A stretch of DNA of 64,000 bases, taken from NCBI GenBank assembly GCA_024741835.1, contig JAENRP010000110.1, positions 1-64,000 on the forward strand. Direction: 5' to 3'. A model generated the notes under the pieces. The model was not told the origin of the DNA. It made no database searches and worked only from the letters and a program-made list of their open reading frames with translations. Source of the DNA: Diplocarpon mali. Lineage: Eukaryota; Ascomycota; Leotiomycetes; Helotiales; Drepanopezizaceae. Both the position numbers and the translations under genes were made by a program. Below are positions 13,649 to 61,475 of this stretch, one piece after another (positions within the stretch are counted from its first letter, which is position 1; the number at the start of each line of letters is the position of its first letter).

Positions 13649-14497
13649 TTAGGAGGCTGCGAACGCAACGTCCGGGCGTATTATAATCGCTGTATAGAGA
13701 ATAGAGCCTATTTTCTCTTGGTACTCCTTTACCTTTTCTAAGGAAGCTTGCCCTGAGTTCTTGACAAACTCCTTCTTTGGCAGTGGAGTATTAGGCACTC
13801 TCCCTATATCAGCTCCGAACTTTTGAGCGATCTTCTTAATGTAGGTATTATGAACTAAGGAGATCCTCTTTGCCTTCTTATCCCGAATAATCCTTACTCT
13901 AAGGAACCAGGAGATATTTCCTATGATAGTAAGCTTGTACGCCCTCTTTAGGTCTTTAATCAGACGAGTCGCCCGATCTAGGTTGGAGGCCTTATATAAC
14001 ACTTGAATATCGTCGATGTAAAACGCTATAAAGACTGTGCAATCCTTTGTTGTAAAAATATAAGGCTCCTCGCTTAGTGGCTTGAGTTGAAGGCCCTTAA
14101 GCGTTCCTGCGAAGTTCCTATACTATAGCGCTGGAGAGTCTTTTAGCCTGTAGAGCGCGCGGTCTAGTTCTACTACTATACTAGGGCGCTTAAAGCCATC
14201 TGGTAGGAAGCACGTGACTGGAGCACTCCTTGGGTCTCTGGGAGCATTGACGAACGCATTGACGACGTCGAACTGCTTTACTTCTATATCGAAGTACGCG
14301 GCAAGCGCTATTAGTACCTTGAAAGACCTTGCTGCAAGCGTGGCTGCGTAGGTTGAGAAAATTGAAGCTTCGTCTTGGAGATCCCCTCGCACAACTAGCC
14401 GTGATCGGCACTTTAGAAGCTCGCTAGAGCTATTGACCTTATAGGTAAAAACCCATTTTAATAGTATCAGCAGGGGTTTCGAGTAATCCCTTCGCAC
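13649..14497 (-). pseudogene. Copia reverse transcriptase (RVT_2) remnant
   Basis: Two adjacent open stretches (14497-14123 and 14002-13649) belong to one RVT_2 domain broken by RIP-type stops. The first contains the Copia landmarks RLVVRGDLQDEA, DVVNAFVNA and DRALYRLKDSPAL. The second contains the following fingers/thumb region, IGNISWFLRVRI, and ends in RPDVAFAAS just before RNase H. The YVDDI-type catalytic strand lies between the two pieces and is disrupted. The enzyme would have synthesised element cDNA in virus-like particles; this copy cannot be functional as it stands. Confidence 0.8.
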
Positions 14498-16420
14498 GAT
14501 TTTCTAGCAACTCCGAGATTCCAAATTCCTGATCTCCTAGCGCCCTCCTTCCTTAAATCGTTCGCTAAAAGGGTGCTTCTCTAAGTCCAGCCATCCTTTC
14601 GGAGGCTTCGGCAGAGAGCCTTGGTGCTATGGGCGGTTGGGAGACTGCGCTCCATCCTTTGCCCGACTATCAACTGCAGCTTTGATGACTGCATGAACCG
14701 TTAAATGGTCCTTCCTATCCTCCCTTGTCTATTCATTCGCTTAGAAGGTCGATACAAACTCCTGCGTACGTAGGGAGCGGGGTAAATCAATATTGCTTTA
14801 GGAGAGCATATGCTCTAGAGCGGTAGCGTACACTTTTGAAGTCTCCTATTGCTTAACGCTTAAGCGTCTCATCCTCTTTTGCCTAGGAAGAGGGAGTTCC
14901 TCCTTGCGCTTTTCTCTATAGGTCTCCTCCTCTATTTTTATCATTACTAGAGGTTCCTCTAAGAGTCTAGGTGGCTCTATCTCCTAAGCCTATAGTCTCT
15001 AAGCTAGTATTACAACTTAAGGTATTGTATTATTAGGGCCTACTCCTCTTACTAGGTCGCTTCTTATAAGACTATTAGAGCTCCTCCCAGATCTCAGCGG
15101 CAGTGCCTCTAGCCTTCTACCAGAGTTCACTAGGGCCTGCCTTTGTAACCGAAGACTCCGTCTTAAAGCCCTTAAGCCATCTCCATTCCTGCGTAGAATG
15201 GCGGCTAGAGATCTGCCGATCGCCCTATAGAACTCGTCTCTAAAGACTCCCTTAAAGTCGTCCACAGTTCCTTCTTCAGTAGGGCCTCTATAGGGAATTA
15301 TCACCCCTAAGCTCTAGTTGCCATTTGCCTTCTTAAAGACTGGCGAAGTGGCTTCCAGTTCGCTTGCTTCTACCCCTAAGTTTCCAAGTAGGTCTCTTAG
15401 AGAATTTGGATTTAAGTTAAGGCCTTCTATATCATTAGTTGGAGGCTGTAGAGCAGCGTTGGTCTATGATGCAGGCTCTTTCTATACAGCGGCTTCTTCC
15501 GCAGCAATTGCGTTCGGCCTTGCGATAAGCTCCGATTCCTTGAAAATGCCTTCGAACTCAGCATCCTAAGCTCCCTCTCCCTCTCCGATCAATTGGAGGG
15601 TCGTCTTAAGTTCCTAGCGCGATATAGGGTTTGCGCGCTTAGCTTCTGGACTATAGAAGAGAGACTCGTCGAATTCGACATTATAAGTCGTTATTACTCG
15701 CTAGAGCATAGGAACCTAGATTCTATAAACATTAGAGGTGATATATCTAACTAAGTAACCTAAGTGCCCTTGTAGTTTAATTTTAAAGGTTCGGCGGTCC
15801 CTCCTTGCCTCCCTCTCCTTAATTAAAGGGTATGCGCAAGCGCTATACGTATAAACGCGACTCTAGTCTGGCTTTAAGCTCGCCGTCATCTGCTTAATAA
15901 GCAGCGGCTCGTAAAATCGAAAATACTACTTAAACCAACTATAGAGAGCCTCGCTCGGTAAGATCATCTTCTTCCTAGCGAGTAGGGAGATGTTATAGAG
16001 GTATATAGCAGCCTCTACAACCTCCGGCCAAAGGCTCGCTAGAAGCCTGGCGTAGATCCTCATTTTAATAGAGCGTTCAATCAACTCCCTTCCTACTCGC
16101 TCCGCGCCTCTATTGGGTTAGTGTGTATAGGCAGGAGTAAGCTCCAAATCGATTCCCTCCTCTTTTACCCATCTCTAGTACTCCGTAAGAGAGTCTTCCC
16201 TTAGGAAGATCACTAAAGTGTTATTATCTTATCTGATCTTGCAAATGGAAAGCCTATATTGGCGTTTCACTTGTGCTTCAAAGGCCTAGAGGACCTCTAT
16301 AACCACGTCTCCGCCCTTCGATCTTAGTAGGAATGTCCAAAGCATACCGCTATACTCATCCTTAATTAAAAGAACCTACGAGCAACTGTTATACGAATTA
16401 TCTGGAAAATCAAAGAGATC

Positions 16421-28241: not shown

Positions 28242-29935
28242 ATGAAGTTCGCCAAGCGGGCTGCCTTTGCTATGACGATTGCGTCTTTGCTGAAGGCTCT
28301 GCCTGCTACTGTGGTCGAGAGGCAGTTGGCGTTGGTAAATTCGGTATCTTGCCCCCCTCGCCCCTAAGCATGTCGAGTTCCCCCGTTTCCCTATTCCCCT
28401 CTCCCATTTCCCATGTCCTCATTCCCATTTCCCGGAAAACCCACTCACCGCGGTCAACGATGGATGGTGAAGCGACCATCTCCAAGAGAATACACAAGTA
28501 CTAACAGGCCTATCACCCGCTAGGAAACCCTCCGCCAGAACATCCAGACGGCCTCCCTCGTGGACAAGCTTAGACAACTGCAAGAGATGGCCGACCAAAC
28601 GCGTAGCCGCAGCCGTTTTATCGGCACCGCTGCCCACGCCGAAACCCTTAGTTACATCTACTCGCAGCTTAATCACACCGGATACTATAATATCGACACC
28701 CAGAGATTCACTGCCTCATATGATCATGCCGAGCTCATGGTGAATAGGGTGTCTTATAAGTCTCTAGCGTTCACCTTTTCTCCTTTGGCGAACATGAGTA
28801 CGTCGTTGGTAGCCGCCGAAAGGCAGGGCTGTGCACCTGAGGATTACCCTGCCGAGGTGGAAGGGAATGTGGTGATAATCAGTCCTGGAAGCTGTTCTTA
28901 TGATGCGAAGGTGAGTTTGAGGGCCGGGGGTGAGGTCGTCGTCGGTGGGCAGAGGAAGTGCTAACCTGTTGGGCTTAGGCGACGGCAGCAGGGCAAGCGG
29001 GGGCCTTCGGAGCTGTCATTTACAACTCGATCGAAGGAGAGGTCGTCCTCGAAGGGCAATTCGAGGCGCCTGGCAACTTTGTCCCGACAGTCGGCGTCTC
29101 GTGGGAGACCGGGCAGACTCTCCTCCAGTCTTTGGGCGACGTGATTCTGTTTATCGCGCCGAGAGACGTCGTGACGTACGTCTGCCACCCCGACCCTCTC
29201 TAGGTCACGTGACCTCACCCAAGCCCGCTCCGACCACTGACACGGGGCAGGTATAATATTATTGCAGAGACCCGCGGCGGCGACCACGATAACGTTCTCA
29301 TGTTGGGCGCCCATACCGACTCGGTGGCCGCAGGACCCGGCATCAATGACAACGGCAGCGGCACTATCGGTGTCCTCGAGGTCGCCCTCCAGCTTAGCAG
29401 GTCCTCGACGACCAACGCCGTCCGTTTCGCCTTCTGGTCTGCGAATGAAATAGGAGCGCACGGATCTAGGCACTATATCAGTACCCTCTCGCAGGCAGAG
29501 GCGCGTAAGATCCGCCTCTACCTCGACTTTGATACGATCGCCTCCCCAAACTACGTATACGAGGTCTTGGATGGCGACGGATCGGCCTTTGGCATGCCTG
29601 GCGCGCGCGGCTCAGGCGCAGTCAAGAGGCTATGGCAGGACTACTTTGAGGGTCTCCAGATCGAAACGACACCGGCCCGCTTGAACGGCACCGGCGACTT
29701 CGAACCCTTCCTCTCTGCCGGCATCGCCGTCGGTGGGCTAAGCTCCGGCGCCGACGGCCTCAAGTCCCAGAAGGACTGTGAAAATCATGGGGGCCAGGCA
29801 GGCGCACCCTACGACCCAAACTACCATACCGCTCGGGACAGGCTAGTGAATATCAATACCCAAGTGTTTCTCGAGATTACCAAGGCGATTGCGCACGCCG
29901 TTGCCACCTTGGCCAGGAGTTTCGAGACGCTGTAG
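28242..29935 (+). CDS. Secreted M28-family aminopeptidase-like protein with altered active site
   Basis: Exons 28242-28334, 28524-28910, 28979-29175 and 29251-29935 join in frame to give 453 residues. Each intron ends in AG with a CTAAC or CTGAC branch site. The N-terminus MKFAKRAAFAMTIASLLKAL is a signal peptide. Residues around 130-190 form a protease-associated domain. The peptidase domain has zinc ligands in GAHTDSV and NDNGSG, then SANEIGAHGS, DFDTIASPN and the last ligand in NYHTARD. In active relatives the third motif is A-E-E; here the first Glu, the general base, is Asn. The two cysteines that normally flank the last His (CYHQAC) are also absent. Family members remove N-terminal residues from extracellular or vacuolar peptides; this one may bind without cleaving. 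It lies 3.4 kb before the repeat-peptide precursor. Confidence 0.85.
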
Positions 29936-30643
29936 GCACGCGTTGAGGTGGTGGTAGGCGACGATGGCGAGAACTCTTCCGACGCCCGAATGAAGGCCAG
30001 GCTCACGCGGCTCAGTGCGTGGTAGTGGCCATGGGTACAAGAATGGGGAGGATTGTGTCTGAAAATGAGAACAGGGAAAGGGAGCCGTGGACTACGTATA
30101 GAACTCGCTTTTTATATCTATCCTTGTTCGAAATAATCTACAAAGACAGCGCCGCCCGAGCCGTTGGCAAGACAAGACCCCTTCCCTTCCGTCTTACCTC
30201 CCTCCCGTCTCTCGCCGCTGGCACGTGTACGGACCGTGACCCCCTGTGTATGTTCGCAACACCACCTCAAGCACTCGATTTTGCCTTTCAAAAAGCGAAC
30301 CTCTGTGTTCGTCGTAGAATCGGTCAAGATGAGTGTCGGGTGGTGCACGTGGACACGTCCGTCCGGGGTATTCATCCTTCGATCCCGTGACGTACTAGGT
30401 TCGCCTGCTCAAGCCCGACGAGGTGTATTGCGCGCCCGAGGCAGATCCGGATCGGTACCTGGGCCTTACCAGCACGACCTTCCCCATTTTCAAGTTCCCC
30501 TATGTCATCCTGGATCGTGGAAGTCAGTCATCGAGGACGAGCGGGAGTAGCTGGCGGGGGAAAATTGATCGTTGGAACGTGTTGAGGGTTTGAGACGTTG
30601 CGAGGAATTGTGCGGTTGTTGGACGGAGCCGTCGACTCAGCCC

Positions 30644-31010
30644 CTATAATCGGACAACCATGCCGATCCTTTTAGCCCAAGGAAATGTGCGCCACCCTTC
30701 CTTCGTATGGAAGAACGCGCTGGCGCCAACGAAAGCAGTACTGAAGACATACTCCCTCCTCGTTTCCAGTGCCGTGCCCAACAAAGTATAATTCAGAAGC
30801 AGATACCTGGCCCCCCCGTACGACGGATGGTAGTGAAGATATTATCGCTGAGTAAAGAGGAGCTCCCTCTTTAGCACCTGGTTGACGCCGGTCGTCGAAG
30901 GAATATGATTAGGATCGTAAATGATCATCCTACGTCGATTAGCCTCAAGAATCCCCAGCCAAGCTACCCACGCGGGTACAGGCACTCGTCTTCGTGGCCG
31001 GGAGAGAAAA
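30644..31010 (-). pseudogene. Frameshifted coding relic, family unknown
   Basis: The minus strand reads MIIYDPNHIPSTTGVNQV and continues to a stop near 30842. One frame over it continues as YLLLNYTLLGTALETRREY and GWRTFPWAKRIGMVV to a stop at 30644. Both parts look like protein in composition and lie end to end, so a single ancestral exon with one indel is plausible. I do not recognise it. Confidence 0.3.
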
Positions 31011-31336
31011 TGTGGGTAGTACGAGAGGTGGTTGGTTGTATGTAACAGGGTTATTGATTTCGTAGGGATGTGAATAGTGGAAAGAAATATATACATGTAG
31101 CGATGTGTGCCTGAGGCCCCTGCTGACTGTTCCACGCTAAGCAACCCATATTTTGTGGGAAGTGAAGAAGGTCAAACGGAGTCCGGCAGGCCCGCTGTCC
31201 AGGTCATCAGGCGCGGACCTAGTGGAGCCGGAGAAGATCTCGAAGCTCTTCATATTACCTTAGGAGTTGGCTTGGGCAACGTTGTCTCGGTGTGCATATG
31301 GGTATTGAAATCGCATAGAATCAGACTCTGATGAGG

Positions 31337-31530
31337 AAACGGTCTTATAGCATCAGAAGGAATAGGTTGAGAGAAAAAACGGTCTTGTAGCATGAGAATA
31401 GATGAAGAAAGGAAACGGTCTTATAGCATCAGAAGGAATAGATTGAGAGAAAAAACGGTCTTGTAGCATGAGAATAGATGAAGAGAGAAAACGGTCTTAT
31501 AGCATCAGAAGGAATAGATTAAGAGAGAAA
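31337..31530. repeat. Tandem repeat, 76-bp unit, about 2.5 copies
   Basis: Units begin AAACGGTCTTATAGCATC at 31337, 31413 and 31489. Each unit is itself two related halves of about 38 bp (GGTCTTATAGCATCAG and GGTCTTGTAGCATGAG). I see no coding potential and no CRISPR-like unique spacers. Confidence 0.85.
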
Positions 31531-31544
31531 GGTGGCCGCTTAGT

Positions 31545-31822
31545 TCTGAACATCTAAAGGTGTGAAGTTCTTCGGGGTATGGCAAGAGTCTCCAGGATGG
31601 ATCAATAGCATCCGCTATTGTTTTATCACGTCCGCGGAGCATCATGTGATGCTGGAAGTATAATCCGCGGTAGTCGCTATGGCTTGGATTAACGTGTTCA
31701 AAGGCATCACACCTTGCTGCCTCTTGTAGATCGTCATCCTCATTGACTCCGGGGATCTGGTCCCGTGCGGTGATAGCTGCCTTAACCTGGTCAATAGTGA
31801 ATCCAGCCGCGACATATAGAGC
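31545..31822 (-). pseudogene. Open coding fragment without start codon, possibly of a fungal recombinase/Ndc10-like protein
   Basis: About 90 codons are open on the minus strand with protein-like composition (AAGFTIDQVKAAITARDQ, FEHVNPSHSDYRGLYFQHH, MMLRGRDKTIADAIDP). There is no ATG at the beginning and an in-frame TGA precedes it. The HHMMLRG stretch reminds me of the Ndc10/Crypton-type domain of fungal recombinases, but this is only a resemblance. It is probably a remnant of a larger gene. Confidence 0.3.
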
Positions 31823-33342
31823 AGGGGCTCATTTCATGATAGCAGGAGCTCTAGTAGAGGAGTGACGTGAATATGGAGGGTGCTTTTGAATATTGAGAGC
31901 TGGGGAGTGACTAGTACTAGTAGCAAAGGAGTGTGATCGAATATAAGGGTTGAATGCAGTGACGAGCCGTTGCTTGCACATCTTTGCTGAGGGAAAAGGA
32001 CGTCTTGGTCATTGGTTGGCACAGTATAGTTACCAACACTATAGCAGTAGTACGCGTAATTTTAGAGGTGCTTATGTAAGATTTTGATTCTCTTTTTTCT
32101 TTTCCTCGCCGACCTACTATAGGGATTAAGACCTGGCCAAGAGAGAACCATATCAGCGTCCTATCACGGGCAGTACGAATAACGCGCTTTTGTTAGGGAA
32201 GATGCACACTTCTCTAAGCGAGATGTTTTGACCTGCGATAGAATAAAGAGAAAGATAAATAGCACAGTGTAACGTCGCGACGGCACTCTAAGCGAGAATA
32301 AGGATAGGGGCAAGTATAGGGGCAGAGAGTGAATTCATGGGTCTACTACGAAGAAAACGGACAAGTCAGAGAGCCCCGCTGGTACGGAGCTCTCTCCATC
32401 TACATACATGAATTTAGCCAGCCTCCATTCCACATACGATTCCTCTCCGTATCGTATCTGACTGATACTAAAGCCGAGTACATAGCACAGGTAACCTCCC
32501 TCCTATTTTTCTTTCTTTACTGCCTCGGCTGGTATCAGTACACAGGCCGGTACGATGTCTTCTACAGGACTAATTGAGCCGTCGTTACACCTGATTGAAA
32601 TGTTAAAACGTACGAAAAACAGAGCAAAAGTGACACGAGATAGCGCCCTAACAGCTAGCCTTTGAACAGGCGTACTAAATTTGGATCTTGTTCTTATATT
32701 TAGTTTCCTATTTCTATCCTCGCTTTTTCATAGCTCTCTTTGGACTGGATCCTGGCCTTTACTTTGATACTAAACAAAGAGGGCAAGCTTTACGTTACTT
32801 ACAGGGTACCTATCTTACACCTTGGGTGGCGACCCGAGTAGTCCTGTGGACAGGTCTGTTTCGAAGCAACGTTCTCACCGAATCTTTGGGAAACAACATT
32901 ATATCTCTTAGGTAACATTACATCCTCGTGTTCAATGCCGAGACCAGATTCACATAAACGATATGTGAGGTCTCGGGCGCTGGGAGACCTTGCAGCCTCA
33001 GAGACCACGAGGGCTGAAAGGGTTGATACTCACCGCCACATTTTCAACCTCCACATCAAAAGGCCCGTAGAAAAAGACTCGTACCAAAGGCAAATACGGT
33101 TATGGGATTTGCGCGGGACAAAACCACATGAGCATCTTGCTCAACACGGTACGACCTTACAATTGAAAGCCTTGCACAGGAAGCGGTGAGTATGATCGGG
33201 CCCGAAGGTTAGAGTGAAGTCGAACAGTTATATTTGCCCGCATCCTACGAGGTCTATTACGATTCTAGTAGATCGGCTATCGATTCTATCCAAGACCTTC
33301 ATACATCCTGTTATATAGTCATATACACTGCTCATCATCAAT

Positions 33343-33873
33343 ATGCATTTCATTGGACTAGCTTCTCTTGTAATCCTCCTCACTGGGGTTGCTGCCGCAC
33401 CGGTAGCTACTTCCAATGCCCTGATCTCCCGTCATACCTCGACAAATAACAACGCCAACTTGCAATCTGCTACCGGGAACAAAAACCCGGTCGATGATGG
33501 ATCTTCAGTCGAGAAGCGCGGTACTGGAAACAAAAACCCAGTCGATGATGGATCTTCAGTCGAGAAGCGCGGCACTGGAAACAAGAACCCGGTCGATGAC
33601 GGATCTTCAGTCGAGAAGCGCGGTACTGGAAACAAGAACCCGGTCGATGACGGATCTTCAGTCGAGAAGCGCGGCACTGGAAACAAGAACCCGGTCGATG
33701 ATGGATCTTCAGTCGAAAAGCGCGGCACTGGAAACAAAAACCCGGTCGACGACGGATCTTCAGTCGAGAAGCGCGGTACTGGAAACAAAAACCCGGTCGA
33801 TGATGGATCTTCAGTCGAGAAGCGCGGCACTGGAAACAAGAACCCGGTCGACGACGGATCTTCAGCGGAGTAG
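33343..33873 (+). CDS. Secreted repeat precursor with eight Kex2-bounded units (candidate RiPP/KEP precursor)
   Basis: The 176-residue product has a clear signal peptide (MHFIGLASLVILLTGVAAA, cleavage expected before PVATS) and a short leader. Seven exact 17-residue repeats TGNKNPVDDGSSVEKRG follow from residue 44. A last, shortened unit ends DDGSSAE at the stop. Each full unit contains the dibasic KR that Golgi Kex2/KexB protease cuts, so seven or eight peptides around GTGNKNPVDDGSSVE would be released after trimming. No intron is needed. Fungal dikaritin RiPP precursors and other Kex2-processed repeat proteins share this architecture. A UstYa gene and oxidases lie downstream, which favours a RiPP role. 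The core lacks Tyr, Phe, Trp and Cys, unlike characterised dikaritins and mating pheromones. Confidence 0.85.
   Translation: MHFIGLASLVILLTGVAAAPVATSNALISRHTSTNNNANLQSATGNKNPVDDGSSVEKRGTGNKNPVDDGSSVEKRGTGNKNPVDDGSSVEKRGTGNKNPVDDGSSVEKRGTGNKNPVDDGSSVEKRGTGNKNPVDDGSSVEKRGTGNKNPVDDGSSVEKRGTGNKNPVDDGSSAE
33472..33870 (+). repeat. Eight 51-bp coding repeats of the peptide precursor
   Basis: Units start at 33472 and every 51 bp thereafter, with the eighth truncated to 42 bp. Differences between units 1 to 7 are all at third codon positions (Thr, Gly, Lys, Pro, Asp, Asp, Glu and Gly codons) and all synonymous. Only the last unit changes an amino acid (Val to Ala). Confidence 0.95.
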
Positions 33874-34560
33874 ATGGATCGAAAGACTTGCTTCTACTAG
33901 AATTTGCGGTTAACGAATGAATGGTTTGTGCTTGGTGATAGGCTTGGGAGTGGAAACATCCTTGGTTTGGTTTTCCCTTCCTGTTAATAGGAAGGTTTCC
34001 CAAACCTTAGTGCAAATGCAAAGGCTTGTTTTCCAGAAATGATCTAAATGCTTGTAAACAACTACCAATTGTAAAGTGACTTGACAACTTTGAAAGTATA
34101 CTAGGGTGGGCACCAAAGCTGTCTTGGAGGCTCAGCCTGTACTGTGATCAACATAGTAATGTCAACAGTTTGTGGCAAGCTCGTGATGAGATCCAAGCTC
34201 GAAATTTTTCAATTTATCGCGAAGTAGAAGCATTTTCCCATCGGTTCTGTGGGGATTTTATCACAAATTTATGATCAAGCAAATGAAGTCATATATCTCG
34301 AAGGCGTAGGGCTCACTCGAAGCTACTTTTTTTTCTTCAGTACTTTTATCATCCAATTTAGAATTTCAAGGCCAAAAAAGCACGACAATCGAGGTTCATT
34401 TCAGAGGCCGCCAAATAAATCAGGTTCCCGTGTATCTAAAGTTGTGGTGAATCAACCCAAGATTCTAGAATTTCTGTTAAACCAAATCAATTTCCGGTAC
34501 ACATTTATGTGAGGCAAGCTGCAAAATTGATCACAACTATTAATGATCCCATAGTCCTAG
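33874..34560. other. Intergenic region between convergent genes
   Basis: This AT-moderate sequence lies between the 3' ends of the precursor and the minus-strand HxxHC gene. I see no gene, repeat or clear terminator motif. Confidence 0.5.
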
Positions 34561-35265
34561 CTAACAGGTCAAAAACCCAATCGTCCCATAGGTGTGAATC
34601 TCCTCCAGCCTTTCCATACTCTCCCCCAGGTGTTCCCTCAGATAGTCAGTACAATGTGCCGCATGCTTATGGCTGCCTGTCAAGTTGTCTAGCCGGCCTC
34701 CTCTAGCTACGACATCCACAGCCCTCTTGAGGATGAACGAGCAGTGGACCGCATGCTCCAGCGTGCTGCTCCAGTACTCTCCGTTGCGTCCCAGCTCCTC
34801 CCACGTCATCGGCTGCGTGCCGTTGCGGTCTCGGTAGAAGATGAACGGCGTGGAAGCGCCCTGGTAATAGTAGAACTCGTCGTGATAGTCCCGAGGGCAC
34901 GAATTGTGCACCCAGTTAGCAGCCAGGGCGTCGTAGACGCAACCTAGGGCTTCGGCTTCGGAGGGAGAGCTGCCGCAGGAGAGAGGGGCGCGCGGCTGGG
35001 TGAGGGGCTCGAGTTTATCAAGATCGAGCTCGATCGTTATCCGGCCAATTCTGGCAATGTAGAACCCTATTATACCGGAGAGGGTAGATACTGCTAAAAG
35101 GAGGAGAAGGATAGAATGCTGGGAGTGGAAAGCGTATTTAGGCTCGCGAGCGCTTTCGTAGGTGTTGCATCTAGCGGTGGCGACTGATTCATGGTCGGAT
35201 TCATGAACTGCTTCATACTGAGTATCCGCTCTCTTGCCCTCTGATCTCCATGCAAATGCTGGCAT
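34561..35265 (-). CDS. Single-pass membrane protein with two HxxHC motifs (UstYa/DUF3328-associated type)
   Basis: The uninterrupted frame gives 234 residues from the ATG at 35265; this start matches the usual short N-terminus better than the next in-frame ATG upstream at 35382. A transmembrane helix spans about residues 50-71 (HSILLLLLAVSTLSGIIGFYI). The lumenal part has GCVYDALAANWVHNSC, a Tyr-rich stretch, then HAVHC at 171-175 and HAAHC at 201-205. Paired HxxHC motifs are the presumed metal-binding catalytic feature of UstYa-like oxidases, and this architecture recalls HC-motif proteins found beside DUF3328 genes. It is divergently placed from the UstYa gene across 705 bp, suggesting co-regulation. 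A role as partner oxidase, comparable to the UstYa/UstYb pairs of dikaritin pathways, is an inference. Confidence 0.65.
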   Translation of the reverse strand: MPAFAWRSEGKRADTQYEAVHESDHESVATARCNTYESAREPKYAFHSQHSILLLLLAVSTLSGIIGFYIARIGRITIELDLDKLEPLTQPRAPLSCGSSPSEAEALGCVYDALAANWVHNSCPRDYHDEFYYYQGASTPFIFYRDRNGTQPMTWEELGRNGEYWSSTLEHAVHCSFILKRAVDVVARGGRLDNLTGSHKHAAHCTDYLREHLGESMERLEEIHTYGTIGFLTC

Positions 35266-35970
35266 CTTTCTCTCTCTGATCAGTGGCGGAGTAAACTGCT
35301 GGGGATAAACGTCAACGCTGCTAGGAGATGCACTGATTGCGACACACGTATGGAAAGTAAAGAGGATAAGATTCTCAAACAAATCTCAGCTCTGGGATGA
35401 AGTATGTCTTGTGCCCCTCGGCTTCAATGCTCATCAGCCGACCGCAGTGCTGTCTGGTCGTACCTTCGTGGTATCTCATCCGAGAGTTCTCGGCGCTTTG
35501 TTCTTTGTTTACACTCCCGAAATTAGCCGAGCCCTCGATTAAGCGAGTGCTCACCGCTACCAACGGGTGGCATATCTTAACACCCTCCTGACAGCAATAG
35601 TGCTACCATGTCGGCCCCTCATGACAACTTACTTAGTGTAAGATGCATCTCCCCATCTGCAGGCTTGGGTATTTGATACCGCTTCCTGTGCCACAGTTAC
35701 CGCATGGTGCTGTGTATCGGCGTGGTATTACGTTACTTGTTAGCGCAGACCGCTCTCCAAAGTCGAAGCGGTCAAAGATCCCAAGCCCAGCTGAGATTTT
35801 CAGCCCAAAGCAACTTGGGGCTCGGGTAACGAGACGTGGTGAGCGCGGAGAACGACCTTGGGGGTCTTCTAGGCTTCTCAGGACCATGACTTGAGCATAT
35901 CACTTAACCACCAAACTAATTCACGATCTCCTACTACAAATTTCAGCACAGAGAATTTGATATCTTCGCG
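35266..35970. promoter_or_regulatory. Shared divergent promoter region
   Basis: The 705 bp between the two divergent HxxHC/UstYa genes is the only space for both promoters. I could not identify a specific factor site with confidence. Confidence 0.4.
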
Positions 35971-37137
35971 ATGGCTTACCCGACAAATTTCAATTACACC
36001 CCACTAGGGAAGTCCAACGAGAAAGGAGATCTTCAACGCCCTTATACAATTAAATCGCTGGCTCTCAAGATCACCAGCTTTGTAGTGATACTACTGCCAT
36101 ACGTCTACATCCTCTATCTCAAGACACAGCCACATCAAAAATGCGGCCTGAATACCGATATTCTTTTCGGAGAGAGTGAGTTGCTCAGTGATCCGCCCGG
36201 CTCCATCTCAGATTACCATTCCTCTACAAAAGGAAGGAGCAAGAGACCATCCCCAGTGAGAACACATACTCACAAGATATTAGTCCCCTTCAATGACACA
36301 GTTATCGAGAACGACGATGTTTTCCTGCACACAGACCCCTTTGTCGAAGGTAAAAAGTGGGTCATGAACCCGCCCTGGGATGAGATGTATCTCGGTATCC
36401 TATGCCCTCCTTGCCCCCTCTTAATCACGCCATTGGACAGGACATGAAATGCTAAGAGAGGCACAGGGAGTTGGATAGCCCTCACACCCTCTCCGGGTCA
36501 AGTCCCAGCCCGAGAGATTCAGTCAGGCATGCGAATGCGAAGCGTAGCAGCCGATCCAAGCGAGTGGGAAGAAGAGAGTCGAGGGTTTGGGGTCGCTGTT
36601 ATGCACCAGATGCATTGCATTGTAACATTCCTTGCTTTCAGCCTCATCCCATCTTTTAAGTTCAAACGCTGGAAATGCAGACAGAGGGATTGACCTAAAG
36701 CGCAGATGGTCATCAAACATACGCTCATCGAGTTCCAAGCTGACGGCTCCTCGAAGGAGGATCTCGCGCATGTCCATCATTGCATCGAGACTTTGCGGCA
36801 GGTTCGTGCTAATCATCTTTGCCTCTGAAATTATAATGCACTGCTTGATTCTCTCGGGGTATCTTTGCCACGCTTCCATCTATTACGCGCCGCTTCGAGA
36901 CCACAGCTGATCGCATCGGCCGAGCAGGCAGTGAAATGCCACGCTGATCTCGCCCTCGAACACCCCTCGCCCCAACGCAGCGGAACCAAAAAGACACAAA
37001 CCGTTTCCGGGTGGGGGAATACGCACTTCTGTCGTCATTGGCCGAGCGTCGCGGATGCGATCAAGAAGCGGAGTATTGAGCGGGATGGGGTGGGAAAGTG
37101 GTTGAGATCTGGGTCTGGATCTGGATCTGGTTCATAG
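35971..37137 (+). CDS. UstYa-family (DUF3328) oxidase-like protein
   Basis: Four exons (35971-36394, 36461-36621, 36706-36801, 36928-37137) join in frame to 296 residues. The N-terminus has a cytosolic YTPL-type start and one transmembrane helix at about 31-50. Exon 1 ends in NPPWDEMYL and exon 2 continues GTGSWIALTP, a join typical of the family. The first catalytic-type motif is HQMHC at 190-194. The second is HVHHC at 217-221, followed by IETLRQAVKCHADLALE and GWGNTHFCRHW, the canonical C-terminal blocks. UstYa proteins catalyse oxidative cyclisation of precursor peptides in the secretory pathway of ustiloxin, asperipin and related pathways. The tail ends in a Gly-Ser run encoded by (TCTGGA)n. 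The first intron's acceptor lies close to its branch site and is the least certain. The substrate here is presumably the repeat precursor 2.1 kb upstream. Confidence 0.85.
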
Positions 37138-37219
37138 TCATATTTATGGCGACTCTCTATCTTGCAATCGAATTTCGAATTCCCCATGCTGAAAAATGAG
37201 AATATCTTGGCAAGCACGA

Positions 37220-38909
37220 TTACTGCTTTCCCCCCGCTTGAGCCCCAGCATCTGCCATCCGTTCCCGCTCCCGCTCCCGCTCCCTCTCCCGCTCCCGTTC
37301 CCGCGCCGCGTACCCTTCCCGCTCAAGTTTCTTGTCACCGAGCGTGACGCCTATTTGCTTGATGACGAGCCAGGCTGGAAGCAGGGCGAGGCCCCAAAGC
37401 CCGAAGTTGAGGTATACGCCGCCGACTTCACCGAAGATCTCGACGCTGTTGAGGCCATACTATATTTTCGCTGTTAGACGAGTCCGATCCCAAGCAAGAA
37501 GATCAGTACGGCACGAGGGGAATGCTTACGCTCACAGCCTGGACAGCCGATTCTGTAGCTCTGAGTAGACCGGCAATACGAATGACCTCCGCGTCTGTAC
37601 TGGCAAGCTCGCCGATCACAAAATACCTTGCCTGGTCAGAAGTCGCCCCAAAGGAAAACGAGAGGAGGCTAAGGAGAGGGAAGGACAACAGAGATGAGAA
37701 GAGATGTTGTGACATACAGATACATATAATTCAGCTGAAAGCCCATCACCCAGAACAAAAACAAGGCAAATGCCTTCCCGAATCCAGCATCGTTCCAATC
37801 ATACGTCGGCCGACTGACCCTGAAATCCGTCACCAGAATCGTCGCCCAGGCCCACCACACGCCCTGCAGACCCAGGATGACGAGAAGAGCTCCGCGCGCT
37901 CGCGTCTTGAGCATCATTCTCTTTGAGTCGAGGAATACGCCGAGGATGTTGCCACCGACCATGGCCACGATGCCCGAGAGGAACGAGCCGAGCGCGCGAG
38001 CCCGCACGCTGAACCACAGGGCCTCGAAGGTGAAGAACACGGCTTCGGCGTACACGGCCTGCGCGATGAGAGGCACTAGCAGCAGGAATTCTCTGCTGAA
38101 GAAGAGCCTGGTGTTGGCCTTCAGCTCGTAGCCTGCGCTGTTCGTGATGGCCAGCTTGACCTTGACCCCGTCCGTCCTCTGGACCTTGTCGGGCGGGTTC
38201 AGCAGCAAGCCTGCGAGAGGGCCGACGGCTTGCAGAGCGATGAAGGCGAGGTAGACGTTGTAAGAGACCTTGCCCACGCGGTCGTGGTCGGCGTTCATGC
38301 CCAGATTGATGGCACCGCCTAGGACCTGGCCCCCGATGCGGAAACTCAGCCAGAAGCCCAGGAAGCGGCCCTGGTTCTGCGGCTCTGGGTAGGCGAGCGC
38401 AATAGCAGCCTCGGCCATCCAGAACACGCCCGCAGAGATGCCACACAGCGCCGCGCCGACGAGCACGAACCACTCGGTGCCGAAGCGGTTGTTGGTGTAC
38501 AGGCCGGCGGCATACGGCGCGTAGCCCATGGTCCCGAAGATCAACGACCATTTGATGCCGACCGCTTTGACGAGGATCGGGGAGAAGAAGCACGAAACGA
38601 CCATGAGGCAGAACGTCAGCGCGTTGGCTGCGTTGACCAGGTACGGTTTCTGCTGCCCGCCGGCCCCCAGGGAGTTCATGGCGCCCCAGATTCCAGGCGC
38701 GAGGAAATTGCAGATACCGAGGATGAGCGCGTTGTATAAGGTGCTGCGGTACCATTTGGCTGAGGATGTGAGTGGAAGCATGAGCATCGAAGGAGGGAGT
38801 TGGAGAGAGACGTACGTTTGGTGTATTCATGCGAAACTGGGAGAGCTTCGTTGTCTGATGAGAGATCTGTGTCGACTTGAGGTACCGACTTGAGCCCGGG
38901 GTCCGGCAT
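37220..38909 (-). CDS. UNC93-like (DUF895) major facilitator transporter
   Basis: Exons 38909-38816, 38759-37718, 37668-37530 and 37459-37220 give 504 residues in one frame. The start MPDPGLKSVPQVD precedes a cytosolic segment, then the family hallmark KWYRSTLYNALILGICNF and FLAPGIWGAMNSLG. About ten to twelve membrane helices follow (for example WFVLVGAALCGISAGVFWMAE), then GELASTDAEVIRIAGLL and a final helix LNFGLWGLALLPAWLVI. The tail is an alternating Arg-Glu run encoded by a CGGGAG microsatellite. UNC93-like fungal MFS proteins are uncharacterised exporters or channel regulators; in a biosynthetic cluster this one would be the candidate efflux pump. It converges on the UstYa gene with only 82 bp between stops. 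Confidence 0.85.
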
Positions 38910-39610
38910 TTTGAAGCTTCCCTGAACCTGAAGACAGTTCTTGGGGAGAGGACTGTATATCACGATTGCCTACCCAAGAGTCCGGGCTAGACTGAGGATC
39001 CCCGACAGGTCAGTCTTCTCTTTTAATTATCTCTTCTTTGACCCGTCTTCCCTCTTCTTATAAGCCTGTCTCCACCCATCACTCACAACATAGGACCTGC
39101 CAATGACACCAGCCACTAGCTCTCAACAAAGACCTATCAAGATCTCTCTTCTCCTCTCCTCTCCCCCCTCTCCTCTCCTTAACCTCCCCTCTCCAACATG
39201 CTTCCTCGGGAGTTTGATAAGAAACCTGCCATGTCGAGACGCGCCGATGGCGTGCGATCACGAAATCCAAGCCCTGCCAGCACGCTCTCCCCGATCCACT
39301 TTTGGACTCGAGGCAGCCAGCGGCGCGTCTCCTAAGGTGACTCGGGCGGAAGAATATCACGGCGTGGGATTGGATGGCGGAACTGATTCTTGAGATCGCA
39401 TGGTAGAACTCCCTCAACGGCTCGCTTCGTTTCGTAGTGATTTCAGACAGGCACGGTTCGTGGGCTGATATGAAAGACTGGAATAAGTTTGATGGCAAAG
39501 AACAACGATACCATCGCTCACCGCTTCGCATGCCAACAGGTCTTTGGTTCTCAACAGCTTCCCTGGCTTGTCGGTACTGAGCGGATCGCCTGATATCGAG
39601 ATATCTCCAT
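38910..39610. other. Intergenic region between two minus-strand genes
   Basis: This 700-bp gap between the end of the flavin monooxygenase and the start of the transporter holds a pyrimidine-rich tract at about 39150-39200. That is plausible as a promoter element of the transporter. No gene is supported; the open frame at 39079-39618 has no recognisable feature. Confidence 0.45.
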
Positions 39611-41200
39611 TCACACAATTCGCTGTCGTTTGGCAGGACTATCTAACGTCTCCGTTGATCCACTGACTCTCTTTTCGCCATTTGCCTCTGGAGCCGCCAC
39701 TGACCCATTGGACTTCTTCCCTCCAAGTGTCTCTTCTGCCCCCAAGGCTCCATTATCCTCCTTGCTGGCATTCGCCTCTCTAGCATACTCAGGCACATCC
39801 TCCCCCGCCTTCCAGAAGAATCTAGCCCCAGGATGCGTCTTATCCAACCTCTCTCTCCCCTTGACGCCCAAATAATTCTCTCTTAGCGTCCCTCCTTGCA
39901 CTGCGTAGTCCGCCCAGAATAGCCCCCTCCGCCGCAACTCCGGCAGCAGAAACTCAATCACATCGTCAAAGGTCTCCGGCACCGCCGCATAACTCAGATT
40001 AAATCCATCCACGTCCGCGACCTCGACCCACCTCTCCAGCTCGTCCGCAACCGTTGTTGCGCTACCGACGACTTTGGCCCCGTTACCGCCGATGATCAGG
40101 TGTTCCGCGATGGCCTTCTTGTTCCATCTCGTGCCCTGCGGTGACGACGCAGCCCAGTGGTTCACCATGCTGCGCACAGCCGGGGGAGCTGTGTCGAGAA
40201 ACCTGAAATCCTCATCATCGCTATACTTCCCAAGGTCGTATCCCGACCATCCTCCAAACAGAGCCAATGCGCCTTCTCGATCGCCGTAGCTGGCTAGTTC
40301 CTCGAACTTCGCGTGCGCTTTCTCATCTGTCTCGCCTACGATGACCAACAGTCCAGCGACAATCTTAATGCTGCTCGGGTCCCGCCCGAGAGCCCTGGCT
40401 TGCGCCCGTATCGAGTCAACTGAGGGCCGCACCAGCTCGGCTGTATGGCCGTTCAGAAATATTGCTTCGGCATGCGTCGCCGCGAATCTCCTTCCTGCGC
40501 TTGACGTGCCAGCCTGAAACAAGAATGGTGTTCGTTGCTTCGAGGGCTCGCAGATGTGTGGCCCTGGGATAGCGAAATGCTTTCCCTTGTGATCAATCTG
40601 CCTCACGCACTTTGGATCCGCATAGGCCCCCTTTGGCGCGGCGCTCCTCGCATCGTCGCGCCACGACCCTTCCCAGAGTTTGTATGCGACTTCCATGTAC
40701 TCATGGGCGATCTCGTATCGTTCATCGTGCGGAATCTGCGTGTCCAGGCCGAAGTTCCGCGCCGCAGAATCGAGATACGATGTCACGATGTTCCACGCCA
40801 CCCTGCCCTCGGCTAGGTGGTCCACCGTCGAGAACTTCCGCGCGAGCATGTACGGGCTCTCATATGTCGTCGACGCCGTGACTCCAAACCCGATACTCTC
40901 CGTCGCGGCTGCCATGGCCGGGATACTGTACAGAGGATCGTTGATAGGGAACTGCGCTGCGGCTGGGATCGTTGCATCGAGGTTCGCAGGCCCATTGTAC
41001 ACATCGTAACCTCCGAGCACGTCTGCGAAGAATACAGCGTGGAACTTGGCTTTTTCGAGCTTCTGGGCGAGAGAGATCCAGTGCTTGATGCTGGAGTAGT
41101 CGGTGCTGGTGTCGGAGGGGTATCGCCAGAGGCCCGGGTTCAGATGGCCTGGCGCCTGCATGGCGAAGGCATTGATGATCAGCTGTCTCTTTGCTGCCAT
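39611..41200 (-). CDS. FMN-dependent monooxygenase, DszA/NtaA/SnaA family
   Basis: The intronless gene encodes 529 residues from the ATG at 41200 (MAAKRQLIINAFAMQAPGHL). That start matches the family's N-terminal strand; the frame is open further upstream but that part has no family resemblance. Family blocks include HLNPGLWRYP, KFHAVFFADVLG, ATTYESPYMLARKFSTVDHL-like sequence, RVAWNIVTS, FLFQAGTSSAGRRFAA and LLIVGETDEKAHAKF. These are bacterial-luciferase-fold enzymes that use reduced FMN from a partner reductase to oxidise sulfur, amine or aromatic substrates. The last 65 residues are a polar Ala/Glu/Lys extension ending PAKRQRIV. It shares a divergent promoter with the FAD monooxygenase. 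The substrate is unknown, and catabolism unrelated to the peptide is an alternative. Confidence 0.88.
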   Translation of the reverse strand: MAAKRQLIINAFAMQAPGHLNPGLWRYPSDTSTDYSSIKHWISLAQKLEKAKFHAVFFADVLGGYDVYNGPANLDATIPAAAQFPINDPLYSIPAMAAATESIGFGVTASTTYESPYMLARKFSTVDHLAEGRVAWNIVTSYLDSAARNFGLDTQIPHDERYEIAHEYMEVAYKLWEGSWRDDARSAAPKGAYADPKCVRQIDHKGKHFAIPGPHICEPSKQRTPFLFQAGTSSAGRRFAATHAEAIFLNGHTAELVRPSVDSIRAQARALGRDPSSIKIVAGLLVIVGETDEKAHAKFEELASYGDREGALALFGGWSGYDLGKYSDDEDFRFLDTAPPAVRSMVNHWAASSPQGTRWNKKAIAEHLIIGGNGAKVVGSATTVADELERWVEVADVDGFNLSYAAVPETFDDVIEFLLPELRRRGLFWADYAVQGGTLRENYLGVKGRERLDKTHPGARFFWKAGEDVPEYAREANASKEDNGALGAEETLGGKKSNGSVAAPEANGEKRVSGSTETLDSPAKRQRIV

Positions 41201-41915
41201 TGTGAGGTGGGGGGACAGAAGGAATACAATGAGAAGGGGTTGGGCAGCTCGGCGACGCGTTGCGTTGAATGCAATGGAAAACAAAGCTCGCCGATAGAAG
41301 TATGAAATAGACAAGCTTACCTCACGCTCGATGCTTAGAGCGAAGACACACCCACTCACCTTCTGTTGCTTGATGATTGAAGCTGACAGGTGTGATGAGC
41401 CGCCTCTTCCTCTGTCGTTGGTTGCAGGCTGTCGTCGTATTCCGCCATTCCGCCCCGCTATCCCGCCAACGCCAAGCCCCGCTCCGCCCACTAGCTCCGA
41501 CCTTATTCTAACGTTTCCACGTGCTGCCCCTGAATACCCTCCCCTGATCTTCGTCCAGATCGCCGAGCGCAGCTAGTGCTGTCCCCATCTATGTGAGAAT
41601 TCACTTGAGACTTCGAAGAAAGTCGTCATGTCGAGCACTGATTGCATCATTTGGCGTGTAGGAGAGACATTTGTCGAGGCGGCACGATCAAAGGATGCAG
41701 CAAGAAGCAACTCTTATCAGAACCCGCGAGCTCTTCCTACCTGGCGCCTGTTTCCAAGCGGAATCTAGTATGATGTTGCCATAGATGCTTGTGATAGCGT
41801 GATGCGTCGTGAGGGCTTGGAATTGGGGTGGAGCGTGAGCAGCCTCTGCTACGTTTCCTTTGTTTACCTCTCCTGCTTCCATACACATCGGTCATATTTT
41901 CTGGTATTTGCGCGC
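41201..41915. promoter_or_regulatory. Divergent promoter region between the two flavin monooxygenases
   Basis: Both monooxygenase genes start from this 715-bp interval and point away from each other, so common regulation is likely. No specific operator could be identified by eye. Confidence 0.4.
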
Positions 41916-44046
41916 ATGGCAGCCTCAGTTGAGAGCGAGAGCGTTGTTGCTACCATGGGCTCGGCTCTGTTGAAGCAACCGACGTCTTACGATGTCGAGA
42001 TGGCTTCGCCTCTCGACGTCAGTTGGAAGGACGAGCTCGCAGCAGTGACACCTCCGTCAGAAAGCAACGGCTTATATGGCAATGCTAATTCCACAAAATC
42101 GACACAACCTCCTCAGAGATCTCCATCTCCCGAGATCAAGACCCAGAGCGAAAATCACTCGGTGAAGACCGCCAAAGATCCCAAGCCCTCGCGTACCTTT
42201 GAGCTGGAAGATCGCCCAATCGATGCCCCATCAACTATACGAGTAAGCCCTCTCCTCGACTCTACTTGTTCCATTAGCCTGAATATCTTCAGGTCGCGGT
42301 CATTGGCGCGGGACTGGCAGGAATCACAGCTGGGATCCTTCTTCCTGCCAAAGTCCCCGGCATCTCCCTCACTATCTACGACAAGAACGCCGCCGTGGGA
42401 GGAACATGGTAGTAAGTAGCTGCCCGAGATTGCTTCTCTCCATCGTTTCTTACTCTTCCTCGTCAGCCTATCTGCCCATCACATCCCCTCACCTTCGGAT
42501 CACTCCACATCTGACCCACTCTAGCGAGAATGTTTACCCCGGCGTCCGCTGCGACATCCCCGCCAACGTGTATCAATCGACCTTCGCCCCCAAGACTCAA
42601 TGGACCGAAGAATACGCCCAAGGCGCCGAGATCCTCTCCTATTGGACTGACGTCGCCGAAAAATACAACGTCTATCAGTACCTCCAACTGCGCCACAGAG
42701 TCGCCGGCGCAACCTGGGACCAAGGCAGCGGGATCTGGACTCTCCGCGTGGAAAATCTTGCAACGGACGAGACATATGCGACGGAGTTTGACGTGGTGAT
42801 CATGGCGATTGGACGATTCAATGATTGGAAATTACCCGATTACCCTGGCATCAAAACTTACAAGGGCCACCTACGACACTCCTCGGCCTGGGACCCGAAG
42901 TTTGATCCGAGGGGAAAGACAGTAGCAGTCATCGGGAACGGCGCAAGCGGCATCCAAGTCGTGCCCAACCTCCAACCCCTCGTCGCTCACTTGGACCACT
43001 ACGCCCGCTCGCCAACCTGGATCGCCGGCTCCTTTGGCGGCGAGGGAGCCGGAAGACGCCTGGAGCCGAATTACTACGCGAAAGAGCTTCTCGCATCTTT
43101 TTCAGACTCGGAGACCTACCTCCACTTCCGCAAAGATCTCGAATCGACCTTCTACCGGCGATTTGGCACGCTGTTCGCAGGCACGGAAGCGAACGAGAAT
43201 CTGCGCAGAGAGTTCATAGCTCTGATGGGCGAGCGGCTGAAGCAGAAGCCGGAATTACTGGACTCCATCGTCCCAGATTTCCCGCCCAATTGTCGCCGCC
43301 TCACGCCAGGCCCGGGGTATCTTGAGGCCCTCACCGAACCCAACGTCACCTTCATCCGCACGCCCATCTCCCATTTCACGCCGACCGGCATCGTGACCAC
43401 GGATAACATCCACCGCCCCGTCGACGCGGTGATCTGCTCCACCGGCGCCAACGTCGACATGCGGCCCCCGTTCCCCATCACAGCCCACGGCCGTGACCTG
43501 CGCGATGCCTGGTTCCCCGACCCGTTGACCTACCTCGGCCTCGCCACGCCCGGCTTCCCGAACCTCCTGCATCTGCAGGGCCCGAACGCCGCGGGCCACA
43601 GCGGCACGGTGCCGAACCAGGTCGAGACGCAGGTGACCTACATCGCGAAGCTGCTGCGGAAAGCTTCGGCTCAACGCATCAAGTCCTTTGTACCGTCTCA
43701 AGCCGCGACGGATGACTTTGTCGCGTACGCCGACTCCTTCTTCCCCCGGACCGTGTTCACGGCATCATGCAGCTCGTGGGCCAACGGCGGACGCCCGGGC
43801 GGCCGCATCCATGGTCACTGGCCAGGCAGTGCGAGTCACCTTAATCTGGTGCGCAGGGATCCGAGGTGGGAGGATTGGGAGTGGACGTCCGGAGCAGAGA
43901 GCGGCAACCGGTTCGCGTGGCTGGGGAATGGCTGGACGGGCAAGGAGGTCAGAGGAGAGGGAGATCTCACGCCGTATCTAATGAAACCAGAGGATATTGA
44001 TCTGAGGAGTTATCATGAGACCTGGTTTGAGGGGTTAGATAGCTAG
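41916..44046 (+). CDS. FAD-dependent Baeyer-Villiger-type monooxygenase
   Basis: Exons 41916-42242, 42293-42411 and 42525-44046 join in frame to 655 residues. An N-terminal extension of about 110 residues, Ser/Pro-rich, precedes the FAD-binding VAVIGAGLAGITAG. GGTWYENVYPGVRCDIPA follows, spanning the second intron and typical of BVMO/FMO enzymes. The fingerprint YKGHLRHSSAWD corresponds to the F-x-G-x3-H-x3-W motif, and VAVIGNGASGIQVV is the NADPH-binding Rossmann motif. The C-terminal block NLLHLQGPNAAGHSG also fits. Such enzymes insert oxygen next to ketones or oxidise heteroatoms using NADPH. The ustiloxin pathway uses two flavin monooxygenases, so a tailoring role here is plausible but inferred. 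The extension is longer than usual and of unknown use. Confidence 0.88.
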
Positions 44047-60487: not shown

Positions 60488-61273
60488 TCAGCTTTTTCTT
60501 CCTTTTATATTGCCACTATTATGGCTTCCTCCTCCTCTTTCTCCTTTCTGTATTCCTCCTCTTCCTCTGTTGCCTCTGCCTCTATATCTGCCTCCTCTGC
60601 CTCTGCCACGACTTCCTCGAGAGATATTGGCTTCAGTATTCAGAGCCGCAGATTGCGTAGCAATCGGGGTCACTTTCAGCTCTTCTCTATATGTCTGTTC
60701 GTACTGTTGGATCGCGATGACAGTCTCTTGCCAGCTCTTATTAGTATGTTTGAGCTGAAGCTGAATTATTAACCACATTCCAGCTTTTGGCAGACCTGTA
60801 ATCATCTGCTGTTTCATTTGGCTGTCGTTTGGAGGGTTGTCATAGCCTTGGAGGCGAGTTTGGATATTCTGAAGTCGTAGGACGTAGTCTTCTAACGACT
60901 CAGAATAAGGCACGTACTTGGCCTCGTACAATTCTTTAATTAGAATCATATGACCCTCCTCGGTATTCCCCAGTTTACTCTCTCCGTCTCTGATTGCGTT
61001 CCAGAGAGCGTTAGCGTCGTTAGCGATAATATCGTTCTCATACTTCTCGCAGATCATAGGAGTGAGGCTTTTAGCTATAGTAGCTATAGCTTCTTGGTTC
61101 TTCTCTTCCCATTTGCCATCAGATTTGGCAGGTCGTTGAGGAACAGGGCCAATAGCCCAAGCAAGACAGCCGTTTGTTGCTAAGCTTTGAATGATTGTTG
61201 GTTTCCATTCCCAAAAGTTAGACCAGCTAAGCTCGGTCTCGATCTCAGTTTTCTTGGTGATCATATTGGCCAT
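60488..61273 (-). CDS. Copia-type Gag protein (UBN2-like), intact
   Basis: The single-exon product is 261 residues, MANMITKKTEIETELSWSNF onward. The N-terminal two thirds show the Copia gag pattern: WSNFWEWKPTIIQSLATNG, ALWNAIRDGE, EGHMILIKELYEAKY, ESLEDYVLRLQNIQTRL, and QMKQQMITGLPKAG. The C-terminus is a basic Arg/Gly-rich tail (GRGRGGRYRGRG) replacing the CCHC zinc knuckle, probably for RNA binding. There is no protease, integrase or reverse transcriptase downstream. The frame is uninterrupted, which suggests recent activity or selection. It would form particles and rely on enzymes of a full-length relative. Confidence 0.85.
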   Translation of the reverse strand: MANMITKKTEIETELSWSNFWEWKPTIIQSLATNGCLAWAIGPVPQRPAKSDGKWEEKNQEAIATIAKSLTPMICEKYENDIIANDANALWNAIRDGESKLGNTEEGHMILIKELYEAKYVPYSESLEDYVLRLQNIQTRLQGYDNPPNDSQMKQQMITGLPKAGMWLIIQLQLKHTNKSWQETVIAIQQYEQTYREELKVTPIATQSAALNTEANISRGSRGRGRGGRYRGRGNRGRGGIQKGERGGGSHNSGNIKGRKS

Positions 61274-61475
61274 TGTGTTGGTAAGGGTTTTGATCGAATT
61301 GTCGAGGTGTTGAGAAAAATTTCGAAGAAAAGGGGTTATGAATAGGGTTAGGTCGGTATGAAGGGTTGTTATAAAAAAAAGGGTAGAATATTTGCTAATA
61401 AGCAGGTATAAGGGTTTTTATCAATTGATGAGATTGATTGAGCTGATTTTGTTTTTAGAATCTAGGAATTGCTAC

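Follow-up and report, generated by a model that had tools for sequence, protein, structure and literature searches.

What could a fungus make from a secreted repeat precursor that lies beside an UstYa oxidase gene but offers the oxidase no aromatic residue? The question is raised by a locus in bases 1–64,000 of the 127,566-bp contig C110 (this whole stretch is called the window below) from the 49.4-Mb genome of Diplocarpon mali, the apple blotch fungus of the order Helotiales. The locus contains a gene for a Kex2-processed repeat protein (KEP), a gene of the UstYa family (PF11807/DUF3328), and a gene for an UstYa-like protein, here called UstY2. On balance, we favor the view that these three genes together yield a secreted peptide with oxidative modifications, which would be of the ust-RiPS (ustiloxin-type ribosomal peptide synthesis) type and have an aromatic-free core. 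The precursor frame, its eight repeats, and the paired HxxHC motifs together with one hydrophobic stretch of helix length in both neighboring proteins are observed directly. A preliminary description had gone further and assigned seven genes at 28.2–44.0 kb to one dikaritin-type cluster for a ribosomally synthesized and post-translationally modified peptide (RiPP). The genome paper on Marssonina coronaria, the teleomorph of which is D. mali, describes polyketide synthase (PKS), PKS-NRPS, nonribosomal peptide synthetase (NRPS), and terpene clusters, and the term "RiPP" does not occur in its main text (PMC7864672). The locus could also lead to a secreted apple blotch metabolite that has not yet been described.

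The precursor gene and its repeats

The precursor gene (positions 33343–33873, plus strand) is one uninterrupted frame of 176 amino acids, present in a single copy in the genome. The protein begins with a hydrophobic leader (residues 1–21), continues with a Ser/Asn-rich pro-region to about residue 42, and ends with eight 17-residue repeats followed by the stop codon. The leader, as predicted from the sequence, resembles a signal peptide: residues 3–21 are hydrophobic (19-residue mean 2.26), and the stretch ends in AAA-P. At the DNA level, the array consists of eight in-register 51-bp units (33469–33873, plus strand) with the protein consensus GTGNKNPVDDGSSVE-KR; in amino acid letters, the first repeat starts with A (Ala-Thr-Gly...) and the last finishes SSAE-stop. 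Tandem Repeats Finder reported it with a period of 51, 7.6 copies, 94% matches, and a score of 671, the highest among 24 rows for the window. There are seven KR sites, with no dibasic site before repeat 1, and six repeats have KR on both sides. The preliminary description of eight KR-bounded repeats behind a signal peptide was correct as to the number of repeats, but not as to how many are bounded; the leader is signal-peptide-like. KEPs are defined by at least three tandem repeats of at least 8 amino acids between Kex2 sites and by an N-terminal signal peptide (PMC7329392 section 13); eight 17-residue repeats with seven KR sites agree with the repeat part of this definition.

The repeats differ from one another at twelve nucleotide sites. 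Four of these, at the ends of the array, were set aside (residue 1 of repeat 1 and, in repeat 8, two sites of a Val/Ala codon and the stop). All eight internal sites are synonymous third positions, an outcome with a probability of about 1.5e-4 (roughly 1 in 6,500) under random variation; comparison of all repeat pairs gave proportions of synonymous (pS) and non-synonymous (pN) differences of 0.28 and 0.013, respectively. Since every internal variable site is synonymous, the repeat frame looks to be under purifying selection.

Past residue 20, Phe, Trp, Tyr, Cys, and Met are all missing from the precursor; its single His (residue 31) lies in the pro-region. The repeat itself is devoid of Tyr, Phe, Trp, His, Cys, and Met. 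The protein does not fit an ascomycete alpha-pheromone precursor: the alpha-pheromone of Leotiomycetes has a core with two Cys and STE13 sites of the KREA/KRDA type (PMC6339444), while here Cys is missing and KR is followed by GT. A Pfam match to YdfZ (21.5 bits, below the cut-off of 27) was taken as an artifact of the repeats. Two stretches of the repeat had no match in 5.39 million open papers; the supplementary tables of PMC7329392 lie outside this scope and may hold an identical entry.

Two paired-HxxHC membrane proteins next to the precursor

The UstYa gene (35971–37137, plus strand) starts 2.1 kb past the stop codon of the precursor. Its five exons (35971–36175, 36284–36394, 36467–36621, 36706–36801, and 36928–37137) encode a protein of 258 amino acids that matches PF11807 with 72.5 bits (cut-off 25) and has HQMHC at residues 152–156 and HVHHC at residues 179–183. 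All His and Cys residues of the HxxHC(x)nHxxHC pattern are present, the only hydrophobic stretch of helix length spans residues 30–48, and two further cysteines (193 and 224) are retained in relatives. The splice junctions agree with those of the relatives P0005 and P0006. Thus, the complete UstYa announced in the preliminary description is real. An earlier splice model of 301 amino acids, in which two intron stretches had been kept, was the query for the homologue search, the PDB search, and the first Pfam scan; it was replaced by the 258-residue model after comparison with P0004, P0005, and P0006. In the homologue search, this earlier model matched JHW43_005901 of D. mali, and in the PDB sequence search it found no UstYa relative, with one chance row at E = 0.52. 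P0004, the protein model given for this gene in the database, leaves out the HQMHC stretch (window positions 36600–36640). Because the first HxxHC motif is omitted there, a search of the annotation by motif would overlook this gene; the precursor, too, did not turn up as a database protein.

UstY2 (34561–35265, minus strand) is encoded by one exon and comprises 234 amino acids, with HAVHC at residues 171–175, HAAHC at residues 201–205, and one predicted membrane helix in the hydrophobic stretch 52–70. It is the second paired-HxxHC membrane protein of the preliminary description, which was accurate on this point. The UstY2 and UstYa genes stand head-to-head and are separated by a putative divergent promoter region of 705 bp (35266–35970). 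Relatives of UstY2 are P0002 (99% identity) and P0003 from Xylogone (49%); the 99% identical protein comes from a database record named D. coronariae, which we take to be the same fungus as D. mali. A paralogue is encoded on contig C203 (43207–43884); it has HINHC and HTDHC motifs, has no Pfam match at E ≤ 1, and is surrounded by housekeeping-type genes. Together with this paralogue, UstY2 possibly represents an unnamed fungal HxxHC family, and we treat it as an UstYa-like protein and not as a member of PF11807.

Pairing of precursor and UstYa genes in the genome

The PF11807 profile matches the genome in at least eight places, which are spread over the contigs C85, C162, C13, and C110. Repeats of the KR type were sought in uninterrupted frames of the window and of 19.8 kb at each of the UstYa places on C85, C162, and C13. 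A KEP was found at two of the four places, on C110 and C13. If an ascomycete strain has 5.25 KEPs, the mean published in PMC7329392, about 0.0085 KEPs should by rough estimate lie within 10 kb of these four places. Since two were seen against about 0.009 expected, the pairing of KEP and UstYa genes in this genome is, judging from these counts, not due to chance. Enrichment of KEP/DUF3328 pairs is described for fungi generally (PMC7329392 section 7).

The second KEP locus (C13, 131500–136412; L014 and L015) encodes four Tyr-containing repeats next to four PF11807 matches, which correspond to three apparent UstYa genes. By its sequence, it has the canonical dikaritin-like layout. Both loci have a KEP beside PF11807 genes, but Tyr is present in the repeats of C13 and absent from those of C110, and three apparent UstYa genes occur at C13. 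The genome therefore offers two cluster types that can be compared in one organism, as its C13 cluster contains Tyr. The hexamer DDGSSV, noticed post hoc, is common to the two precursors; in shuffles of the 66-residue part of the C13 precursor, a hexamer match of any kind to the repeat arose in 21 of 200,000 cases, which suggests that DDGSSV may be a shared recognition stretch. None of four large frames flanking the C13 cluster had a Pfam match.

Comparison with known peptide systems

Dikaritins are defined by a KEP precursor accompanied by one or more UstYa homologues (PMC10512285). The locus contains both, the homologue scoring 72.5 bits at a distance of 2.1 kb and having the complete HxxHC pair. 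It shares with ustiloxin, phomopsin, asperipin-2a, victorin, and epichloecyclin the signal-peptide-like leader, tandem repeats with Kex2 sites, and an adjacent complete UstYa. It differs in its core, which has neither the Tyr of these systems (or the Phe of victorin) nor any other aromatic residue, and in having one PF11807 gene with a sub-threshold relative and no tyrosinase on the contig. Tyr, called essential for the dikaritin core (PMC6339444), is the residue through which ustiloxin, asperipin, and phomopsin are cyclized (PMC7329392 section 7; PMC6339444); in victorin this residue is Phe (PMC9233826). Where cyclization of these compounds and of epichloecyclin is stated in PMC7329392 and PMC9233826, it always proceeds through an aromatic residue. 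Some dikaritins do without a tyrosinase; asperipin-2a is named as a cluster with few accessory genes (PMC12048977 section 17).

Because the repeat holds no Tyr or other aromatic residue, the Tyr cross-link of ustiloxin or asperipin is impossible here. The reading as a RiPP cluster, put forward in the preliminary description, is partly supported by a Kex2-type repeat precursor standing beside a real UstYa more often than expected by chance, but its qualifier "dikaritin-type" is not, since the repeat lacks the aromatic residue used for cyclization of ustiloxin, phomopsin, and asperipin. The label "dikaritin" appears too strong for such a sequence and is not supported. In architecture and gene distance, the locus resembles the KEPs with DUF3328 neighbors surveyed in PMC7329392. 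These make up 1758 of 7878 KEPs; Tyr occurs in the repeats of 65.6% of them and is missing in 34.4%. Since KEPs that have DUF3328 neighbors but no Tyr are fairly common, the locus is a variant within the known KEP/DUF3328 landscape and not a new kind.

The definition of UstYa (DUF3328) proteins as binuclear copper enzymes dates from 2025 (PMC12435403). The enzyme CctR, a membrane-associated DUF3328 protein of this type, performs copper- and O2-dependent C(sp3)-H hydroxylation; its mutants with Ala in place of the motif His and Cys are inactive, and a lumen-facing catalytic domain has been proposed (PMC12435403). CctR and the D. mali UstYa have in common the HxxHC(x)nHxxHC pair, a single hydrophobic helix, and two additional cysteines (193 and 224 in UstYa). 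The substrate of CctR is, however, a non-ribosomal peptide, while a ribosomal substrate of the D. mali protein is inferred. Deletions of the genes for PhomYc, PhomYd, and PhomYe point to installation of dehydro-Ile, dehydro-Asp, and dehydro-Pro in phomopsin (PMC10880069), and a protein of the UstYa family is reported to hydroxylate a beta-carbon in cyclochlorotine.

Proposed pathway and alternatives

The precursor would enter the secretory pathway, where Kex2 would cut after KR, and the resulting fragment would be trimmed to GTGNKNPVDDGSSVE, with an [M+H]+ of 1475.66 in the unmodified state. UstYa would be held by a Golgi-type membrane, its copper site facing the lumen as proposed for CctR, and would meet the peptide there. 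Kex2 cleavage and oxidation would thus both occur in the Golgi lumen; the sequence is silent on their order. Because the core has no phenol, copper-dependent desaturation or hydroxylation of aliphatic side chains is the likely modification, and Pro-Val-Asp-Asp is the best candidate for it, given that the reported reactions of the UstYa family include desaturation of Ile, Asp, and Pro in phomopsin and hydroxylation of a beta-carbon in cyclochlorotine. More tentatively, the copper oxidase pair, one member of which would come from an unnamed divergent HxxHC family, may oxidize or link only aliphatic and polar side chains (Pro-Val-Asp-Asp, Asn, and Lys). An invariant aromatic-free repeat combined with an intact UstYa would provide a direct test of aliphatic modification on ribosomal peptides without a phenol anchor.

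A less probable alternative, although one to be taken seriously, is that Kex2 releases a linear unmodified peptide, a signal or an effector-like molecule, while the UstYa pair has a different substrate or merely stands by. The core indeed lacks the residues used in characterized UstYa RiPP cyclizations. In addition, 78% of the 7878 KEPs have no DUF3328 neighbor, and the author takes KEPs such as mating factors to be linear (PMC7329392). Moreover, no KEP was detected near the UstYa-type genes on C85, C162, and C203 (the last of the UstY2 type) in the uninterrupted frames of 19.8 kb at each place. On the other side, the precursor and UstYa genes are far closer to each other than expected by chance, and UstYa proteins have been reported to act on aliphatic residues (PMC10880069; PMC12435403).

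The proposal of an oxidatively modified aromatic-free peptide must also be weighed against several less favorable results. UstY2 matches PF11807 with 17.2 bits, under the cut-off of 25 (residues 155–213, including both HxxHC motifs), and neither of two UstY2 relatives, P0003 and the C203 protein, matches PF11807 even at E ≤ 1. Profile alignment of UstY2 with UstYa by hhalign gave P = 0.00048 and a probability of 32% over 90 columns across both motifs. The structure predictions were poor and unusable, with a mean predicted local distance difference test (pLDDT) score of 43 for UstY2 and 40 for the UstYa relative P0006. Precursor homologues at E ≤ 0.01 were not found in the protein database among the 7989 scored candidates sharing most words; since only these candidates were scored and fungal coverage is uncertain, this lack is weak evidence. 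No tyrosinase gene occurs on the 127.6-kb contig among the PF00264 matches listed (at least 19 genome-wide), which bears out the preliminary description for this enzyme. For the Tyr-free KEPs near DUF3328 genes (34.4%), the account of such pairs in PMC7329392 does not say whether they are modified.

The upstream regions gave results on both sides: the 9-mer and the thirteen 8-mers described here speak for the proposal, the other k-mer measures against it. The 9-mer CTCACCGCT has three occurrences in the 143 kb examined: upstream of the precursor, at 35550 in the UstY2/UstYa region, and upstream of the gene for a major facilitator superfamily (MFS) transporter that adjoins UstYa. The 11-mer CTCACCGCTTC lies at 33180–33190 (minus strand), 153 bp upstream of the precursor ATG, and again at 39517 (plus strand), upstream of the MFS gene; noticed post hoc, it is a weak candidate for a shared regulatory site. 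Of its 20 copies in the 49.4-Mb genome, two are at the locus, and the word is no commoner than its reversed control (25 copies). Thirteen 8-mers are common to three of the five upstream regions; none of 100 shuffles reached this number, and 7 of 2000 random genomic sets did. For the two 9-mers that occur in three regions, the corresponding counts were 4 of 100 and 110 of 2000, and 8-mers present in two regions showed no enrichment (47 of 100 shuffles). CGG-N-CCG sites were not enriched either (1, 0, 0, 0, and 2 in the five regions versus 2 and 3 in two control regions). The shared upstream word, found post hoc, gives weak support to a core consisting of the precursor, the UstYa pair, and the MFS gene.

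Neighboring genes and extent of the cluster

The MFS gene (37220–38909, minus strand; spliced, with approximate junctions) encodes an UNC-93-like protein (PF05978, 50.2 bits); it is a possible cluster member and may export the product. Next to it lies a gene for an NtaA/DmoA-family monooxygenase dependent on flavin mononucleotide (FMN) (39611–41200, minus strand; start read by eye), with 489 bits to TIGR03860 against a cut-off of 279.7. It is followed by a spliced gene for a monooxygenase that depends on flavin adenine dinucleotide (FAD) and resembles flavin-containing monooxygenases (41916–44046, plus strand; start and introns approximate), whose frame 42283–44046 matches PF00743 with 35.6 bits. 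The transporter and both oxygenases had been named correctly in the preliminary description; membership of the latter two in the pathway is putative. Upstream of the precursor, the M28 peptidase-like gene (28242–29935, plus strand) was modeled with four exons and 453 amino acids and matches PF04389 with 129 bits, so this assignment stands as far as the family is concerned. The adjacent Glu-Glu of active M28 enzymes is not present in the protein: residues 37–445 align with keratinase KP1, and NE stands at KP1's EE. We take the first Glu of this pair to be the catalytic base, the other being a metal ligand. With NE replacing EE, the protein is doubtful as a peptidase and is a possible pseudoenzyme; its gene is probably not a part of the pathway.

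Consequently, a single pathway of all seven genes at 28.2–44.0 kb, with the M28 protein as the processing peptidase and the flavin enzymes as tailoring enzymes, is unlikely. It would fit the lack of any recognized housekeeping-type gene among the frames scanned at 33–44 kb and the action of two flavin-containing monooxygenases in ustiloxin B biosynthesis (PMC12048977 section 17). However, the M28 gene is 3.4 kb away, behind a stretch of 76-bp tandem repeats, and its product has NE for EE; the 9-mer CTCACCGCT is absent upstream of the FMN, FAD, and M28 genes, and the flavin enzymes belong to broad families. Because of the distance and altered motif of M28, and because the MFS and flavin genes are linked to the precursor only by position, the 16-kb scope of the preliminary description, with one peptide made by all its genes, is not supported; past proximity, little ties the MFS, flavin monooxygenase, and M28 genes into one pathway. 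The M28 gene and the two flavin enzyme genes probably just lie nearby. Farther to the right, DHHC and ubiquitin-conjugating genes start past 48 kb.

Genomic setting

The precursor/UstYa locus is situated at the edge of a transposon island. Positions 1–27,000 are mainly AT-rich with the dinucleotide skew typical of repeat-induced point mutation (RIP), apart from a GC-rich stretch at 12–13 kb, and the island ends just 5' of the M28 gene. That the locus is silent or decaying at this edge, with intact frames that are not expressed, is very improbable: the AT-rich 1–27 kb with RIP-type signatures and copia-type remnants would suit such a fate, but the composite RIP index is ≤0.06 in each 2-kb step from 28 kb onward, the precursor repeats and every HxxHC residue remain intact, and the D. 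coronariae record contains a protein with 99% identity to UstY2. The copia-type remnants in the island are of the reverse transcriptase domain RVT_2 (13649–14503). The tandem repeat between the M28 gene and the precursor (31334–31530) has 2.6 copies of its 76-bp unit with 95% matches. Rfam and tRNA scans gave no matches. On the right side of the window, beyond the RIP-marked island, the frame 60488–61417 contains a copia-type gag match of 35.4 bits.

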